Source: Methanobacteriota archaeon
GTDB taxonomy: Archaea; Thermoplasmatota; Poseidoniia; Poseidoniales; Thalassarchaeaceae
DNA: 64,000 nt
Assembly: GCA_002718995.2 (NCBI GenBank)
Contig: PBGL02000006.1
Coordinates: forward strand, 1-64,000
Direction: 5' to 3'
The translations under genes were made by a program, and so were the position numbers. Positions 36,581 through 45,081 of the stretch are shown here, one piece after another; position 1 is the stretch's first letter, and every line of letters starts with the position of its first letter. The notes beneath the pieces are model-generated. The model ran no database searches. It had not been told where the DNA came from and saw only the letters and a program-made list of their open reading frames with translations.

Positions 36581-37918
36581 TCACAGAACAGACTCATATG
36601 GGCTCTTGTCCTCACCCGGATCAAGAGTAGCATCCATTCCTATCTTACTAGTCATTCCATTGTCTGATCTACTTGGATCCAAACTGGATCCTTTCTGGTT
36701 CGAGAGGATTACTGTGTCAGAATCAGGTTGCCATCGCGTCATCAGCGCCCATTCCACTCTCATGGGATCGGCAATATCGATATCTTCGTCCACTACAATT
36801 ACCTGCTTCATGGAGGGATGGCCATCAAATGCTGCCTGAATTGCCTTCATGCCGTCTTCTGCCTCCTCCGGTACGATCTGTATGACCGATGCAAGCCATC
36901 CACATCCTCCATCAGTCATGTGAACATCCGTACACTTTACGACTTCTGAAACGGCAGTCTTGATTGTAGGTGCCCTGGGCATCCCCATCAGGGTTCTGTG
37001 CTCCACACCAGTCGGTATAATTGCATGAAATATCGGGTCTTTCCTGTGGTGGACGGCATCATATTCTATCACATGCTCCTGTCTTATGTCATCAACAGTA
37101 CCAGTAATGTCGACATACGGGCCTTCATCATCCCGTTCAGGAGTTATTCTGGCCTGCATCGCGTATTCAGCATCAGCAGGAACGATCACGCCGTTAGACA
37201 ACTGAACTACCTTGAGAGGGCTACCATGTAATTTCTCATGCAGAGCGGCTGCGACAGTCAACTCATCTACGTATTCGGTAAATGACATCGCCGCTGCAAG
37301 TAGAACGGTGGGGTCAGCACCATTAACCACGGCAATCTGTACATCTTCCCCATTCTCCGCCGCCATCGTGCTGAGCGTTCTCAGATGCCTAGGGACCAAC
37401 CTCGCCACTGTGTGCTCCCCATCTCGTAATAGTTGCCTGTGGAATGATACATTCCTCACCTCTCCGTATTCGGCGATTATTATCGATGCCGACTGGTACC
37501 TCCCCCCATCTTCCCTGAAGTGCCAGGGTATTGGCAGTTTTTCCAAATCCACGGATTCTTGCCCCGACTCCATTACTTGGGCTTCAGAACTCTCTACGAT
37601 TTGCGGCTCTGAGGGATTTTCCATTGCCCAAGCGAGGATATCGATAAGCTCCCCTGGACTGACTTCAAACATTTCACAGAGCCTAGAGCGCTCTAGAACA
37701 TTTAGAGCCGCCCTGTGACCCGGCGACTCCGCTATATTGTCAAAAACTAAGGGTATATTTCCCATTGATACAGAAGTATCCAGCATGTCGTGATTCACAC
37801 TAACACAATTGTCTATGCGATGGACGCCTTCGAGCATATCACGGAATGCCATGTACAGGGGCGGCATCAGCCCGTGCTTCAATGTTAGTGACAGTATCGC
37901 ACGGGGAGTGCTACTCAC
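36581..37918 (-). CDS. UbiD-family decarboxylase, likely anhydromevalonate phosphate decarboxylase
   Basis: A 445-residue UbiD-family enzyme, which uses prenylated FMN for reversible decarboxylation of unsaturated acids. Conserved stretches include the N-terminal IPLVFDN region, IPWHFREDGGRYQSASI, VSFHRQLL, the EGPYVDITGT region, and VDEDIDIADPMRVEWALMTRWQPD. In archaea a UbiD homologue decarboxylates trans-anhydromevalonate 5-phosphate to isopentenyl phosphate. Isopentenyl phosphate kinase is encoded at 43.1-43.9 kb, so that role is the best inference. A UbiX-type flavin prenyltransferase is not in the window. A 3-polyprenyl-4-hydroxybenzoate decarboxylase is the alternative. Confidence 0.85.
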   Translation of the reverse strand: MSSTPRAILSLTLKHGLMPPLYMAFRDMLEGVHRIDNCVSVNHDMLDTSVSMGNIPLVFDNIAESPGHRAALNVLERSRLCEMFEVSPGELIDILAWAMENPSEPQIVESSEAQVMESGQESVDLEKLPIPWHFREDGGRYQSASIIIAEYGEVRNVSFHRQLLRDGEHTVARLVPRHLRTLSTMAAENGEDVQIAVVNGADPTVLLAAAMSFTEYVDELTVAAALHEKLHGSPLKVVQLSNGVIVPADAEYAMQARITPERDDEGPYVDITGTVDDIRQEHVIEYDAVHHRKDPIFHAIIPTGVEHRTLMGMPRAPTIKTAVSEVVKCTDVHMTDGGCGWLASVIQIVPEEAEDGMKAIQAAFDGHPSMKQVIVVDEDIDIADPMRVEWALMTRWQPDSDTVILSNQKGSSLDPSRSDNGMTSKIGMDATLDPGEDKSPYESVL

Positions 37919-39133: not shown

Positions 39134-41341
39134 ATGGGTCGTAAGGAAGACAACATCAAGCGTGCTACAGAGATAATGCACGATAGAGAGCACATCAGAA
39201 ACATCGCCATAGCAGCCCACATAGATCACGGAAAGACGACACTTTCCGATAACCTGATTGCAGGTGCCGGAATGATGTCAGAGGACCTCGCCGGAAAATC
39301 CAGAGTCCTAGACTTCGACGAGCAGGAAAGCGCTCGCGGGATCACAATAAATGCTGCTAGCGCATCTATGGTCCACAGCGTCGAAGGTCAGGACTATCTG
39401 ATCAATCTCATCGATACCCCTGGTCACGTTGACTTCGGAGGAGACGTAACCAGAGCTATGAGGGCAGTTGACGGGTGCATAATTCTAGCATGTGCCGTCG
39501 AGGGCACAATGCCTCAGACTGAAACCGTAGTTAGACAGGCACTCAAGGAGAAAGTCAGGCCGGTATTATTCATCAACAAGGTCGACAGGCTGATTAACGA
39601 ACTCCAGATTGATGGTCAGGAGATGATGGCCAGGTTTGAGAGAATAATTACCAAGGTCAACAAGCTAATTTCAACGTACGCTCCAGAGGAATTGAGCAGG
39701 GAATGGCAGGTATCAGTACAGAAGGGCACAGTAGCTTTCGGGTCTGCGTATTACAACTGGGGGATGTCAATCCCATACATGCAGAAGAGCGGCCTCAATT
39801 TCACACAAATCTTTGAGTATTGCCACAACGATAACCAGAAGGAATTGGCAAAACTAGCTCCTGTACACACAGTATTACTGGACATGACGGTAGAAGAGCA
39901 CCCGTCGCCCGTTGTGGCACAGGCTTACAGGATTCCAAATATTTGGCAAGGAGATCTGGAGTCAGGAGTAGGAAAGGCGATGATGGAGTGTGATTCTGAA
40001 GGCCCCCTCTCCCTAATGATCACAAAGATTTGGATGGATCCACATGCAGGAGAAGTTGCTGTGGGAAGAGTCTACTCTGGTAGCATAAAGCATGGCGAAT
40101 CCGTTTGGGCTATTGGAGCCGCGAAGGCAGAAAGAGTGCAGCAGGTCGGAATGATGGTCGGAGGAGACAGGATCGCTACATCAGAGGTCACATCTGGCAA
40201 CATTGCCGCAATTACGGGAATCCGCAGTGCTGCCGCTGGAGTGACCATAGCCAGAGAGAAAGACGCAGTCCCATTCGAGGCAATCAGGCACATATCCGAA
40301 CCAGTGGTCACAGTGGCTGTTGAGCCCAAGTCCATGAAGGACCTTCCAAAGTTCATCGATGCCCTAAGGGGTCTAGCAAAGGCGGACGCCTCACTTGATG
40401 TTTCTACCAACCAAGAAACTGGCGAGGCCCTGTTGGCAGGGATGGGGGAACTCCATCTCGAAATCACAGTCTACCGCCTTGAGGAAGAACAGGGAATCAA
40501 AGTCAAGGTAAGCGAGCCAATAGTCGTATACAGGGAATCTGTTCAGAGTACAAACACAGGTAGCCCATTCGAGGGTAAGTCTCCGAACAGGCACAACAGA
40601 TTCTACATTGAGATAGAACCGCTCCCTGATGTAGTTGTTGAGCAGCTCAGAGCAGGCGAATTCAGAGATGGCGCTGTAAGAACAAAGGACGCCAAGGAGG
40701 TTGGAGACAAATTTGCCGAATTGGGCATGAACAAGGATCTGATGAGGAAAATCTACGCCATCAATGGGACCAACGTCCTTGTCAATGATACCAAGGGTAT
40801 TCAGAATCTGCATGAGACAAGGGAACTAATAATCGAGGGCTTCAATGATGTCTGTAAGAAGGGACCAGTTGCTGACGAGCCCCTGATGGGCGTCATGGTC
40901 AGGCTTGTTGACGCGAAGCTCCATGAGGATGCGATTCATAGGGGCCCTGCTCAAACCATTCCCGCGGTTCGAAACGCAGTCAAGGGCGCCTTCATGAGAT
41001 CCAGGCCGGTAATCTTCGAGCCAATCCAGAAAATCCAGATTGATTCCCCTAACGATGTTATTGGAGGAGTCACAAGAGAGGTTTCCACAAGGAGGGGAAT
41101 AATCGAGGATATGCCAGTCGAGGAAGGAGTTACAAAGGTAATAGGAACAATCCCTGTTGCTGAGACTTTCGGCTTCTCTAATGATATCCGTGCAGCCAGC
41201 CAAGGTAGGGCGATATGGAATACCGAGAACGCAGGATTCGTACACCTCCCGCCCAACCTATTCGAAAAGGTAACAGCCGAAATCAGGGAGCGGAAGGGGC
41301 TTAACCCGGATATTCCCGGAGAAGCGCATTACCAGGACTGA
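39134..41341 (+). CDS. fusA: Elongation factor 2 (aEF-2)
   Basis: The 735-residue translocation GTPase. GTPase motifs are AHIDHGKTT (P-loop), RGITI (switch I), DTPGHVDFG, and NKVDR. Domain IV ends with the loop AIHRGPAQTIP, in which His602 (codon 40937) is the expected diphthamide residue. Its modification enzyme Dph6 is encoded at 28.9-29.7 kb. Length and domain order are normal for archaeal EF-2. It follows S12 and S7 but has its own promoter-like sequence. Confidence 0.98.
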   Translation: MGRKEDNIKRATEIMHDREHIRNIAIAAHIDHGKTTLSDNLIAGAGMMSEDLAGKSRVLDFDEQESARGITINAASASMVHSVEGQDYLINLIDTPGHVDFGGDVTRAMRAVDGCIILACAVEGTMPQTETVVRQALKEKVRPVLFINKVDRLINELQIDGQEMMARFERIITKVNKLISTYAPEELSREWQVSVQKGTVAFGSAYYNWGMSIPYMQKSGLNFTQIFEYCHNDNQKELAKLAPVHTVLLDMTVEEHPSPVVAQAYRIPNIWQGDLESGVGKAMMECDSEGPLSLMITKIWMDPHAGEVAVGRVYSGSIKHGESVWAIGAAKAERVQQVGMMVGGDRIATSEVTSGNIAAITGIRSAAAGVTIAREKDAVPFEAIRHISEPVVTVAVEPKSMKDLPKFIDALRGLAKADASLDVSTNQETGEALLAGMGELHLEITVYRLEEEQGIKVKVSEPIVVYRESVQSTNTGSPFEGKSPNRHNRFYIEIEPLPDVVVEQLRAGEFRDGAVRTKDAKEVGDKFAELGMNKDLMRKIYAINGTNVLVNDTKGIQNLHETRELIIEGFNDVCKKGPVADEPLMGVMVRLVDAKLHEDAIHRGPAQTIPAVRNAVKGAFMRSRPVIFEPIQKIQIDSPNDVIGGVTREVSTRRGIIEDMPVEEGVTKVIGTIPVAETFGFSNDIRAASQGRAIWNTENAGFVHLPPNLFEKVTAEIRERKGLNPDIPGEAHYQD

Positions 41342-43069
41342 TTAGTTAATCCTAATCAACTGGAAGTCGGTAAGCTCTCTGAGGATATTTAGTGCAGGAC
41401 TATCGGCAACATCGTCTAGGCAGCTATGTGCTACCGCATGGTGATGCATAGCCCGATTCTTTGCGTATTCAATAGAGCCGCTTTCCTCCAGTTCGGCCAC
41501 GGCCTTAGACAAAACCCCGTCTGAACATTCCCCTGAACCATACGCTTCGGAAAATGCCGGCATTTCTTGTTCGCAGTTGAGAGCATGAATGGCTATGAGC
41601 GTCTTTTTGCCCTGAACTATGTCCGAACCAGCCGGTTTCCCGAGAGTAGCCGTGTCGCCCGTAATGTCAATCAGATCGTCCATAAGTTGGAAGCAGAGTC
41701 CAAGATTTAACCCCCATCTCCTCATATTTTCAACGACCTCCTGTGTAGCACCAGCCAATATTGCGCCCGTACCTGCACACGTCTCGAACATCACACTAGT
41801 CTTCCCTTTGATCATCTCGATGTATTCGTCCTCAGATACTGAATCCCTTGACTCGAACGAGATATCTTCCTGCTGCCCACTAGCTACGTTCCTAACCATC
41901 TCACCTATGGATCTAACAAGAAACCCAAGCTTGTCCTGTTCTATGTCAGGGGACTCTGCTAGAATTTCAAATGCTACGGCGAGCATCGCATCACCGGCAT
42001 TAATTGCAGTAGAATCATCATATGCAACATGAACGGCCTCCAGTCCCCTCCTTATGGGGTCCTGATCCATCAAGTCATCATGAACGAGGGTGAAATTATG
42101 AATTATCTCAATTGACGCACCTAGGGTGTAGTGACCTTCATGAGCATCTCCGACAGCTTCACCAACCAATCTTGGCAGAGTCGCCCTCAGCCTCTTCCCA
42201 CCTCCAGCAAATAGGTGACTCATTGCCCCATGCAATCTTTCCTGTTTCATCTTACTGAGACTCTGCAGAATCACACCTTCGACGTGTTCGCGATGTTTCC
42301 CTATTGCCATCATCAAATTTTGACCCGGATCAACAGATGCGCCTCCAATACTCACTTCTCCGAAGTTTACAACTCCATCCACTGGGACGATATTTTCCAA
42401 ATTTGGATAATGGTCTGCTAGGAATTCATTCCAAAGAAGCCTAAACCAAGGTGCGATAACCTCGCCCTGCCATTCTCCGGAGCCTGAGAACATCTCCTGA
42501 ATTTCCTCTCCCTCTATCCACTTGAAATCAGAGATTTCATTGGGATTAGGATCAACGACAATTGAATCAGTCGTCGCTATCAAAACATGATCAACCTCCC
42601 TTTCGATCCAATCCTCATCCCATCTGCATTCGTATAGGAATGATCCCACGTGCCTGAAGTCTATTCTGGATATGTCGCCTTCAGATACTCCTAACTCTTG
42701 GGAAAGCTTCCTCCTGGCAGCGTTAATTGCTCCCTCTGCCGGATCCCCATTTTCACCCGGGATGTCAAGAGGGTGGCTACAACATGAATTGGCCCAGATA
42801 GATGGAAATGTGATTTTATCATGGGACCTCTGTTGAACGAGCATCTTGCCTTCGCCATTGAATAATAATACGCTGAAAGCCCTATGTAAAATTCCACTTC
42901 CAAAATGGCAGTTCAATTTGGTATCAGAACCAATTTTTCCGTCAGAACTATCCACTAATATGCACATTTCAGACATCATTTCTGCCTGCGAGCTATCCTG
43001 TCCGCTGAGTGCCCCATCATGACTCGCCATAATTCCCGGAGGAATCGGCAACATATAATCGAAATCCAC
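41342..43069 (-). CDS. Fusion of type I isopentenyl-diphosphate isomerase and geranylgeranyl-type prenyl synthase
   Basis: A single 575-residue frame joins two enzymes. Residues about 30-225 form a Nudix-type (type I) IPP isomerase, with metal and active-site residues visible: His55, His62, the NSCCSHP Cys96/Cys97-His99 group, and EREVDH Glu156/Glu158. Residues about 250-575 form a trans-prenyl synthase with GGGKRLR, the first Asp-rich motif DDLMD (331-335), KTSVMFETCAG, and the second Asp-rich motif DDLID (464-468). Together they would interconvert IPP and DMAPP and condense them into GGPP for ether lipids. GTG 43069 follows the isopentenyl phosphate kinase stop by two bases; ATG 43054 is an alternative start. 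The operon supplies isoprenoid steps in order. Confidence 0.93.
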   Translation of the reverse strand: MDFDYMLPIPPGIMASHDGALSGQDSSQAEMMSEMCILVDSSDGKIGSDTKLNCHFGSGILHRAFSVLLFNGEGKMLVQQRSHDKITFPSIWANSCCSHPLDIPGENGDPAEGAINAARRKLSQELGVSEGDISRIDFRHVGSFLYECRWDEDWIEREVDHVLIATTDSIVVDPNPNEISDFKWIEGEEIQEMFSGSGEWQGEVIAPWFRLLWNEFLADHYPNLENIVPVDGVVNFGEVSIGGASVDPGQNLMMAIGKHREHVEGVILQSLSKMKQERLHGAMSHLFAGGGKRLRATLPRLVGEAVGDAHEGHYTLGASIEIIHNFTLVHDDLMDQDPIRRGLEAVHVAYDDSTAINAGDAMLAVAFEILAESPDIEQDKLGFLVRSIGEMVRNVASGQQEDISFESRDSVSEDEYIEMIKGKTSVMFETCAGTGAILAGATQEVVENMRRWGLNLGLCFQLMDDLIDITGDTATLGKPAGSDIVQGKKTLIAIHALNCEQEMPAFSEAYGSGECSDGVLSKAVAELEESGSIEYAKNRAMHHHAVAHSCLDDVADSPALNILRELTDFQLIRIN

Positions 43070-43071
43070 TA

Positions 43072-43869
43072 TTATGGCAATATCCTAGTTCCTATGGGCA
43101 ATAATCCATCAATGACCAGGTCAATCACTCTACTTGGCTCCCTCCCGTCAATGAACCAAACATTAGGTACATTTTGCGCTATTTGAGCCGCTCTTCGTGC
43201 TTTGAGGTCAATTCCCCCAGTAACATCCTCCTCAGCATTATGCGAGGTCTCCGCCTCTATGTTGGGCGACCAAGTATCCAGCAATTCCGCTCCCTGCCTG
43301 CTAGGTGGCCTATCCATCATTCCTGGTGAGTCACCAAGCAAGAATATCGAATACTCAACATTCGGCACCTCTAGCGATAGCCTCACCATGAGATCGTCAC
43401 CAGATAGTATGCCAAACTCACTGGAGTCATCCCTGTCAACTACATCGCCGAATGTTACCATGACCTCATTGGAGGGGGAATCGGTAAATGGCCCTAAACT
43501 ACCAAGAAATTCCGGACCAGTCCCCTTGGCCCACGTTGATGGAGGTAGAGAGGTACATTGAACGCCCTTACTTTCTAGGCTACCCACTACGTGTTTACTC
43601 AACTCAATCATGTCCAAACGAACCTGGGTCACTGCCTGCCTTTGCTCATTCGAAATACTGCTGTCCAAACCTTCCGATAGTTTCCACTTCTTTGCTGTGA
43701 GGTGACCGAACGATCCAGCCCCGTGAACCAATACCACGGAAAACCCGCCATCTATCAACTTAGATACCATTGATGACAGTGAATCTATCACCTCTGTTTT
43801 GACAGTCTTGTGCTTTGATTTGTCCGTAATGAGCCCACCGCCCATCTTGATAACCACTGTTCTGTGCAT
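43072..43869 (-). CDS. ipk: Isopentenyl phosphate kinase
   Basis: A 265-residue amino-acid-kinase-fold enzyme that phosphorylates isopentenyl phosphate to IPP in the archaeal mevalonate pathway. The N-terminal VVIKMGGGLITDKSKHK motif, the HGAGSFGHLTAKKW loop with the catalytic His, FGILSGDDLMVRLS, and GGIDLKARRA are characteristic. ATG 43869 gives the family N-terminus; the reading frame extends upstream to 43926 without similarity. The fused isomerase/prenyl synthase begins two bases after the stop, so product flows directly to the next enzymes. Confidence 0.94.
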   Translation of the reverse strand: MHRTVVIKMGGGLITDKSKHKTVKTEVIDSLSSMVSKLIDGGFSVVLVHGAGSFGHLTAKKWKLSEGLDSSISNEQRQAVTQVRLDMIELSKHVVGSLESKGVQCTSLPPSTWAKGTGPEFLGSLGPFTDSPSNEVMVTFGDVVDRDDSSEFGILSGDDLMVRLSLEVPNVEYSIFLLGDSPGMMDRPPSRQGAELLDTWSPNIEAETSHNAEEDVTGGIDLKARRAAQIAQNVPNVWFIDGREPSRVIDLVIDGLLPIGTRILP

Positions 43870-43961
43870 TCTCTCATGTGTCCGAGACAGCCAAATGATT
43901 TGGGTTCTCCTGCTCGTCTCAAGCACACAGGGTTCATTTCGGTAAGTCCTCTCGGACCCAT

Positions 43962-44291: not shown

Positions 44292-44978
44292 TCACTCCTC
44301 TTCCCAACGCGCTCTTGCAGCTTCGAACTCCGGATCATTATCTGGTAAAACGCTCAGGAATTCACCAGGTACTGAATCTGCAAGATAAACAGTTACTCCA
44401 GCATGCCAGATCGTATCCCCCGAAGCCACCATCCTAGCGGTATCGACTTCCAATAGTGTGGGGCTGGAATGATGCACATGCCCCGCCTCAGCTGCCGCTC
44501 TTATCGTGGCAGATAGGTGTACGTGCGAACGCCCACTCGGCGATATCCCGACCTCGATCAGATTTTCTGCTTCATCTGGTGAGCATGGGTAGTACAGAAG
44601 GGGCGGAATATTCTCAGTAGGCAAGTCTAACTCAATCTCAAGGCTGTGCCCGTATGTTGCTCTCATCATGTTGCCTCTTACCTCATAACGGCCCTTGGGA
44701 TCAGTTTCCGAAATTGCCCTAAAGTGATGAGGCCTTAGCCAGTGAAACCTTCTCTCATTGGACTTCTTGAATTGGTAGACTATGTCCTTAACATCAATCC
44801 AGCCATTGATGTCCATTTCCAGATCAAACTTCTCTGGTGCGTGTCTGAGCACCAGAGCGAGTCTCCTAGCTATCGTGTCTCTTTCGTTCCCCCTCATTAT
44901 GAACTTGCCTTCTGAGTTGCAAGCCGGACAAAGGTCGTCATCGGAGAAATATCCATGTGTACTGCACTCTCTAATCAT
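44292..44978 (-). CDS. kptA: RNA 2'-phosphotransferase KptA
   Basis: A 228-residue Tpt1/KptA-family enzyme, which transfers a 2'-phosphate from RNA to NAD+. An N-terminal zinc finger (ECSTHGYFSDDDLCPAC) precedes the catalytic domain, as in other archaeal members. Motifs are RRLALVLRHAPEKFDLEMDINGWI (first Arg-His pair), LRPHHFRAIS, and SGRSHVHLSATIRAA with the expected conserved residues. ATG 44978 is chosen because the zinc finger starts there and a TATA-like element lies 25 bases upstream. It is divergent from the thiolase gene. Confidence 0.92.
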   Translation of the reverse strand: MIRECSTHGYFSDDDLCPACNSEGKFIMRGNERDTIARRLALVLRHAPEKFDLEMDINGWIDVKDIVYQFKKSNERRFHWLRPHHFRAISETDPKGRYEVRGNMMRATYGHSLEIELDLPTENIPPLLYYPCSPDEAENLIEVGISPSGRSHVHLSATIRAAAEAGHVHHSSPTLLEVDTARMVASGDTIWHAGVTVYLADSVPGEFLSVLPDNDPEFEAARARWEEE

Positions 44979-45000
44979 CGTATCAGCCGTTCGAGATGCA

Positions 45001-45008
45001 ATTATTTG
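45001..45008 (-). promoter_or_regulatory. Putative TATA box of kptA (leaderless)
   Basis: On the minus strand the CAAATAAT element is centred about 26 bases before ATG 44978. This is the distance expected for a transcript beginning at the start codon. It also argues against starting translation at 45050. Confidence 0.4.
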
Positions 45009-45081
45009 ATGAACCCCTCGGTTAAAATTACCAATTATCCACTTACTCAACGGTTATGTCCCTGATATTACCCGCGATATT

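Follow-up and report, generated by a model that had tools for sequence, protein, structure and literature searches.

One reading frame joins type I IPP isomerase to prenyl diphosphate synthase in Marine Group II archaea

Introduction

In the literature searched, the closest known fusion to the gene described here is diatom PtIDISQS, a natural isomerase-squalene synthase fusion (PMC12168105, citing Fabris 2014). Like the archaeal gene, it joins an IPP isomerase to a prenyl-condensing enzyme, but its partner is a squalene synthase, which makes no direct use of DMAPP, and it is eukaryotic; in our judgement, it and the fusion of Marine Group II (MGII) archaea are of independent origin. Each half also resembles stand-alone enzymes. 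Human IDI1 (PDB 2icj/2i6k) shares the Nudix fold and active-site residues with the N-terminal half, for which it is the best solved match (E 1e-46), but it stands alone and is 40% identical to our protein. The archaeal GGPP synthases (Geoglobus 5jfq, Pyrococcus 1wy0; IdsA family) share the fold and the Asp-rich motifs with the C-terminal half, but they carry no isomerase. Finally, the IPK-IDI2-GGPPS operon of other Thermoplasmatota has the same gene order and a related synthase, whereas its isomerase is the unrelated type II enzyme, encoded by a separate gene.

Here we describe a gene in which a type I isomerase (IDI1) and a GGPP-type synthase form one frame. We hold with considerable confidence that it encodes a bifunctional enzyme leading from IPP through DMAPP to GGPP, born of the displacement of IDI2 by IDI1 and a subsequent stop loss. 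Both halves belong to known families, and the domain combination is what is new. In the openly available papers searched on the genomes of MGII, on lipid synthesis in archaea and on fusions of metabolic enzymes, no mention of an IDI1-synthase fusion was found; public databases that annotate automatically may already show both domains on one protein.

Results

The window, that is, the whole 64,000-nucleotide stretch of DNA that was analysed, carries the fused gene and its parts as follows.

41342..43069, minus strand: fused IDI1::GGPPS gene, stop included (open reading frame list and family matches)
42437..42964, minus strand: type I (Nudix) IPP isomerase domain, residues 36-211 (TIGR02150)
42779..42781, minus strand: codon of the catalytic Cys97 in the motif SCCSHP, aligned with E. 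coli and human IDI
42305..42436, minus strand: linker, residues 212-255 (junction comparison)
41345..42304, minus strand: prenyl diphosphate synthase region, residues 256-575 (PF00348, 220 bits against a cut-off of 27)
42065..42079, minus strand: first Asp-rich motif DDLMD, residues 331-335
41666..41680, minus strand: second Asp-rich motif DDLID, residues 464-468

An earlier note, made from the sequence alone, had placed isomerase and synthase in one uninterrupted frame without giving a strand, and the present analysis confirmed that frame and assigned it to the minus strand. It comprises 575 codons from the GTG at 43069 or 562 from the ATG at 43030 (Met14); the ATG is the likelier start, because residues 1-17 have a pLDDT <50 and many relatives start near residue 13-20. 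Pfam and NCBIfam place the isomerase at residues 36-211 and the synthase at 277-526. No further Pfam domain was found at E<=0.001, and no squalene/phytoene synthase domain was found by Pfam at the C-terminus, which belongs to PF00348. The predicted structure (mean pLDDT 90.6) consists of two confidently predicted domains whose mutual orientation the model does not fix (pTM 0.66). By target, the TM-score was 0.88 for the isomerase half against human IDI1 and 0.94 for the synthase half against the Geoglobus GGPP synthase, and none of the structure matches listed was a solved chain covering both halves.

The window comes from a member of MGII (Ca. Poseidoniales), a group among the commonest archaea of surface seawater, and the genomes of this group allowed the junction to be compared widely. 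The source genome is a draft in 30 contigs and related lineages have two separate genes, as might be expected if an assembly or frameshift artefact had joined two genes here; nevertheless, the comparative data refute this explanation, to which we give practically no credence. When 340 genomes of the class were searched, all 150 best places among the matches listed (149 genomes, the source genome included) were a single frame across the junction; a stop or frameshift there, which the earlier note had named as counter-evidence, occurred in none of them. The few listed fused rows with one internal stop have it before residue 14. Fused loci include both MGIIa and MGIIb, and the closest named record to the window locus, UBA438, is 87-88% identical. 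Because the same frame, with the same domain order, recurs in at least 149 MGII genomes, and the fused loci include some from single-cell genomes (L051, L052, L065, L079 and L086) and that of the one-contig 2.06 Mb genome G056, the fusion is not an assembly join. The linker is, moreover, under purifying selection, with a pooled omega of ~0.15 in 48 close pairs, in which all omega values are rough owing to dS near saturation.

Split junctions in relatives were rejected as counter-evidence: the one inspected, in G077, is a run of N, contig ends interrupt the gene in G050, G062 and G134, and in G044 an internal part of the synthase seems to be missing. A record labelled 'uncultured Rhodobiaceae bacterium' (L103), with domain sequences identical to those of G141, is a mis-binned Marine Group II contig. 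The fusion is, in sum, the normal state in MGII, genus g12 excepted. The earlier note had called both the isomerase type and the fusion uncommon; within MGII the fusion is no rarity, and type II, besides being usual elsewhere, holds this very operon slot in relatives. In the rest of the phylum, no IDI1-synthase fusion was found outside Poseidoniia, where IDI1 matches over the cut-off were unfused frames of 176-240 aa. Frames of 575-844 aa in other Thermoplasmatota had suggested synthase fusions, but the seven loci inspected proved to be read-through of GC-rich non-coding frames. We found no viral relatives, and IDI1 genes on plasmids were of bacterial type (about 28-36% identity).

The N-terminal half scored above the curated cut-offs of both TIGR02150 (IPP_isom_1; 140.5 against 105.8 bits) and the NUDIX family (55.9 against 21.1 bits), and the human IDI1 alignment covers residues 24-227. 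In an alignment of 60 diverse fused proteins, H55, H62, C97, H99, E156, E158 and W208 were invariant; we take their E. coli IDI counterparts to be H25, H32, C67, H69, E114, E116 and W161. The earlier reading of this half as a Nudix isomerase with its metal and Cys residues in place was thus borne out. At the fused gene there was no type II isomerase family match, and the best score in the source genome was 22.7 bits against a cut-off of 281; across 332 Poseidoniia, none had a type II isomerase at E 1e-20, whereas the same search was positive in 8 of 14 control genomes.

One could suppose that the N-terminal Nudix domain is catalytically dead, a possibility also raised in the earlier note, or plays a regulatory part, with another enzyme supplying DMAPP. 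The isomerase half does evolve faster than the synthase half (omega ~0.09, the value for its end, against ~0.03 in the 48 close pairs), and a weaker Nudix paralogue resembling IDI1 occurs in some MGIIb genomes. However, none of the metal ligands, nor the Cys, Glu or Trp, varies among the 60 fused proteins, type II isomerases are missing from the 332 genomes, and the source genome gave only one IDI1 match at the threshold applied, which leaves a dead isomerase very improbable. Given the invariant catalytic residues and the lack of a type II isomerase in 332 Poseidoniia, it is very probable that the isomerase half works and is required. The MGIIb paralogues (G303:C13, G302:C79 and G229:C11) score 72-78 bits, under the cut-off.

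The C-terminal half matched the expected GGPP-type synthase with both Asp-rich motifs: D331, D332 and D335 of the first, D464, D465 and D468 of the second and a GGKR motif were invariant in the 60 fused proteins. Chain length of the C20 type is marked by an aromatic residue five positions (-5) before the first Asp-rich motif, and this position is held by an invariant Phe326; Phe was found there in every fused synthase tested and likewise in the synthase of the IPK-IDI2-GGPPS operon. The fused protein scores below the NCBIfam equivalog cut-offs for GGPP synthases (IdsA_Meth, 259 of 468 bits; GGPP_syn, 241.5 of 500 bits), and the chain-length assignment therefore rests on residues and kinship. 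The source genome has a second prenyl diphosphate synthase (G000:C25:35223-36122; L002), 35-36% identical to the fused one. This second synthase, present across MGII, has Ala rather than Phe at -5 and is likely, from this residue, to be a longer-chain enzyme, so that the fused enzyme is the likely C20 supplier.

The low equivalog scores would also fit a synthase making FPP or a longer chain instead of GGPP. We regard such a product as unlikely, since Phe occupies the -5 position in every fused protein tested, the nearest solved structures to the C-terminal half are the archaeal GGPP synthases 5jfq and 1wy0, and the long-chain role falls more readily to the separate synthase with Ala. The predicted product of the fused synthase is accordingly kept as C20 (GGPP).

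Neighbouring genes of the locus, some of which may feed the fused enzyme, are as follows.

43072..43926, minus strand: isopentenyl phosphate kinase (IPK), upstream gene of the same run (NF040647, 137.5 bits against a cut-off of 120)
39134..41341, plus strand: elongation factor 2 (EF-2), convergent neighbour, ending where the fused gene ends
36581..37918, minus strand: UbiD-family decarboxylase (TIGR00148, 297.6 bits against a cut-off of 244.9)

IPK indeed adjoins the fused gene, as had been proposed: its end lies 2 nt (GTG) or 41 nt (ATG) from the fused-gene start, and it keeps this position across MGII. The EF-2 neighbour is conserved in most MGII loci. Upstream of IPK lies a gene for a KptA/Tpt1-type RNA 2'-phosphotransferase (44292-45050, minus strand), a conserved neighbour in many MGII loci. 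The UbiD-family protein is a candidate anhydromevalonate-phosphate decarboxylase, and an AcnX-type protein over the cut-off is encoded elsewhere in the source genome (G000:C12:42601-43785; L289). With IPK directly upstream, AcnX in the genome and a UbiD-family decarboxylase in the window, the IPP source is likely to be the AcnX-UbiD-IPK modified mevalonate route of archaea (PMC10040528, PMC11052028).

Comparison with the rest of the phylum pointed to how the fusion arose. Of 30 synthase loci in other Thermoplasmatota, 18 had IDI2 immediately upstream, and IPK preceded IDI2 in 8 of those, often with only its end visible where the flank was cut. In our tree, the fused synthase clusters with the synthase of this operon, away from the second synthases of MGII and Marine Group III (MGIII); in Poseidoniia, the type II slot is held by a type I isomerase. 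In MGIII and in all five genomes of the MGII genus g12, isomerase and synthase each have a gene of their own, with a stop/start overlap (ATGA, TTGA or TAATG) at the junctions inspected, and g12 matches the fused MGII in its neighbours (IPK upstream, EF-2 convergent). One MGIII genome (G015) has two isomerase-synthase pairs (L238 and L239); its listed contamination is 6%, and one pair may be foreign.

The linker keeps a trace of this junction. The separate MGIII isomerase ends in ...HDMGEVK, and fused linkers have HDMGDV or GEV at that point (GEV at residues 237-239 of our protein), often with a Met a few residues on, as expected if the stop had been lost at a gene overlap. In 67 of 117 linkers, a Met lies no more than five residues from the G[ED]V remnant; this, taken with the separate, coupled genes of MGIII and g12, could also mean that free synthase still arises from the fused frame, by linker cleavage or by internal initiation near the old synthase start. 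Yet this Met is unconserved and is absent from that point of the window gene, and across the linker the reading frame is both conserved and under constraint; a free synthase therefore seems quite improbable to us, and we retain the reading of one fused polypeptide.

Fusion may have occurred once, with later fission in g12, or twice. The RpoB and EF-2 tree places g12 within MGII as sister of the other MGIIa (98/97), and these markers speak weakly against a clade of fused MGII without g12 (AU p 0.043), which the isomerase and synthase tree allows (support 59/19). Tentatively, and with more doubt than confidence, we consider that the Poseidoniia ancestor captured a eukaryote-type isomerase that displaced type II in the operon slot, and that MGIIa and MGIIb afterwards each fused the overlapping pair on their own, with g12 staying unfused.

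As to the donor, a tree of two eukaryotic and few prokaryotic rows, which does not set the direction of transfer, puts the Poseidoniia isomerases together with human IDI1 and IDI2 and apart from eight type I isomerases of bacteria and other Thermoplasmatota (100/100). The MGIII enzymes reach 51% identity to human IDI1 and group with the eukaryotic enzymes rather than with bacterial IDI1. The Poseidoniia IDI1 type looks different from the haloarchaeal and thaumarchaeal IDI1, which have been described as likely bacterial transfers (Lombard et al., PMC3533463).

Discussion

We propose that the fused enzyme works as follows. IPP would come from IPK, encoded next door and part of the modified mevalonate route of archaea, the N-terminal Nudix domain would isomerise it to DMAPP, and the C-terminal domain would condense DMAPP with three IPP into geranylgeranyl diphosphate for isoprenoid lipid chains. 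Judged by its residues, one polypeptide would thus both make and consume DMAPP. The benefit of fusion may lie in a fixed 1:1 dosage and in proximity, and DMAPP channelling between the domains is possible. For its origin, we envisage that a type I isomerase of eukaryote type took the place of the type II enzyme in the IPK-IDI2-GGPPS operon, that the outcome was an IDI1-GGPPS pair with overlapping stop and start, and that a stop loss in MGII then joined the two genes, with the old isomerase C-terminus kept in the linker.

As a natural single-chain IPP-to-GGPP enzyme, the MGII fusion would be an obvious test object for the passage of DMAPP from one active site to the other, and terpenoid engineering could use it as a ready part. 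The fusion alone is moderately surprising; it is more so as part of a displacement-then-fusion series whose unfused states are alive, and living relatives keep the successive states (IDI2 operon, overlapping IDI1 pair, fusion), a full series that is rare. Independent fusions in MGIIa and MGIIb, if true, would imply repeated selection for physically coupling the making and use of DMAPP. MGII have been reported to be without the enzyme that classically makes the G1P backbone, and which lipids form their membranes is not known (PMC6962369). Despite that reported absence, they retain a dedicated and conserved GGPP supply, which bears on the lipids of MGII.
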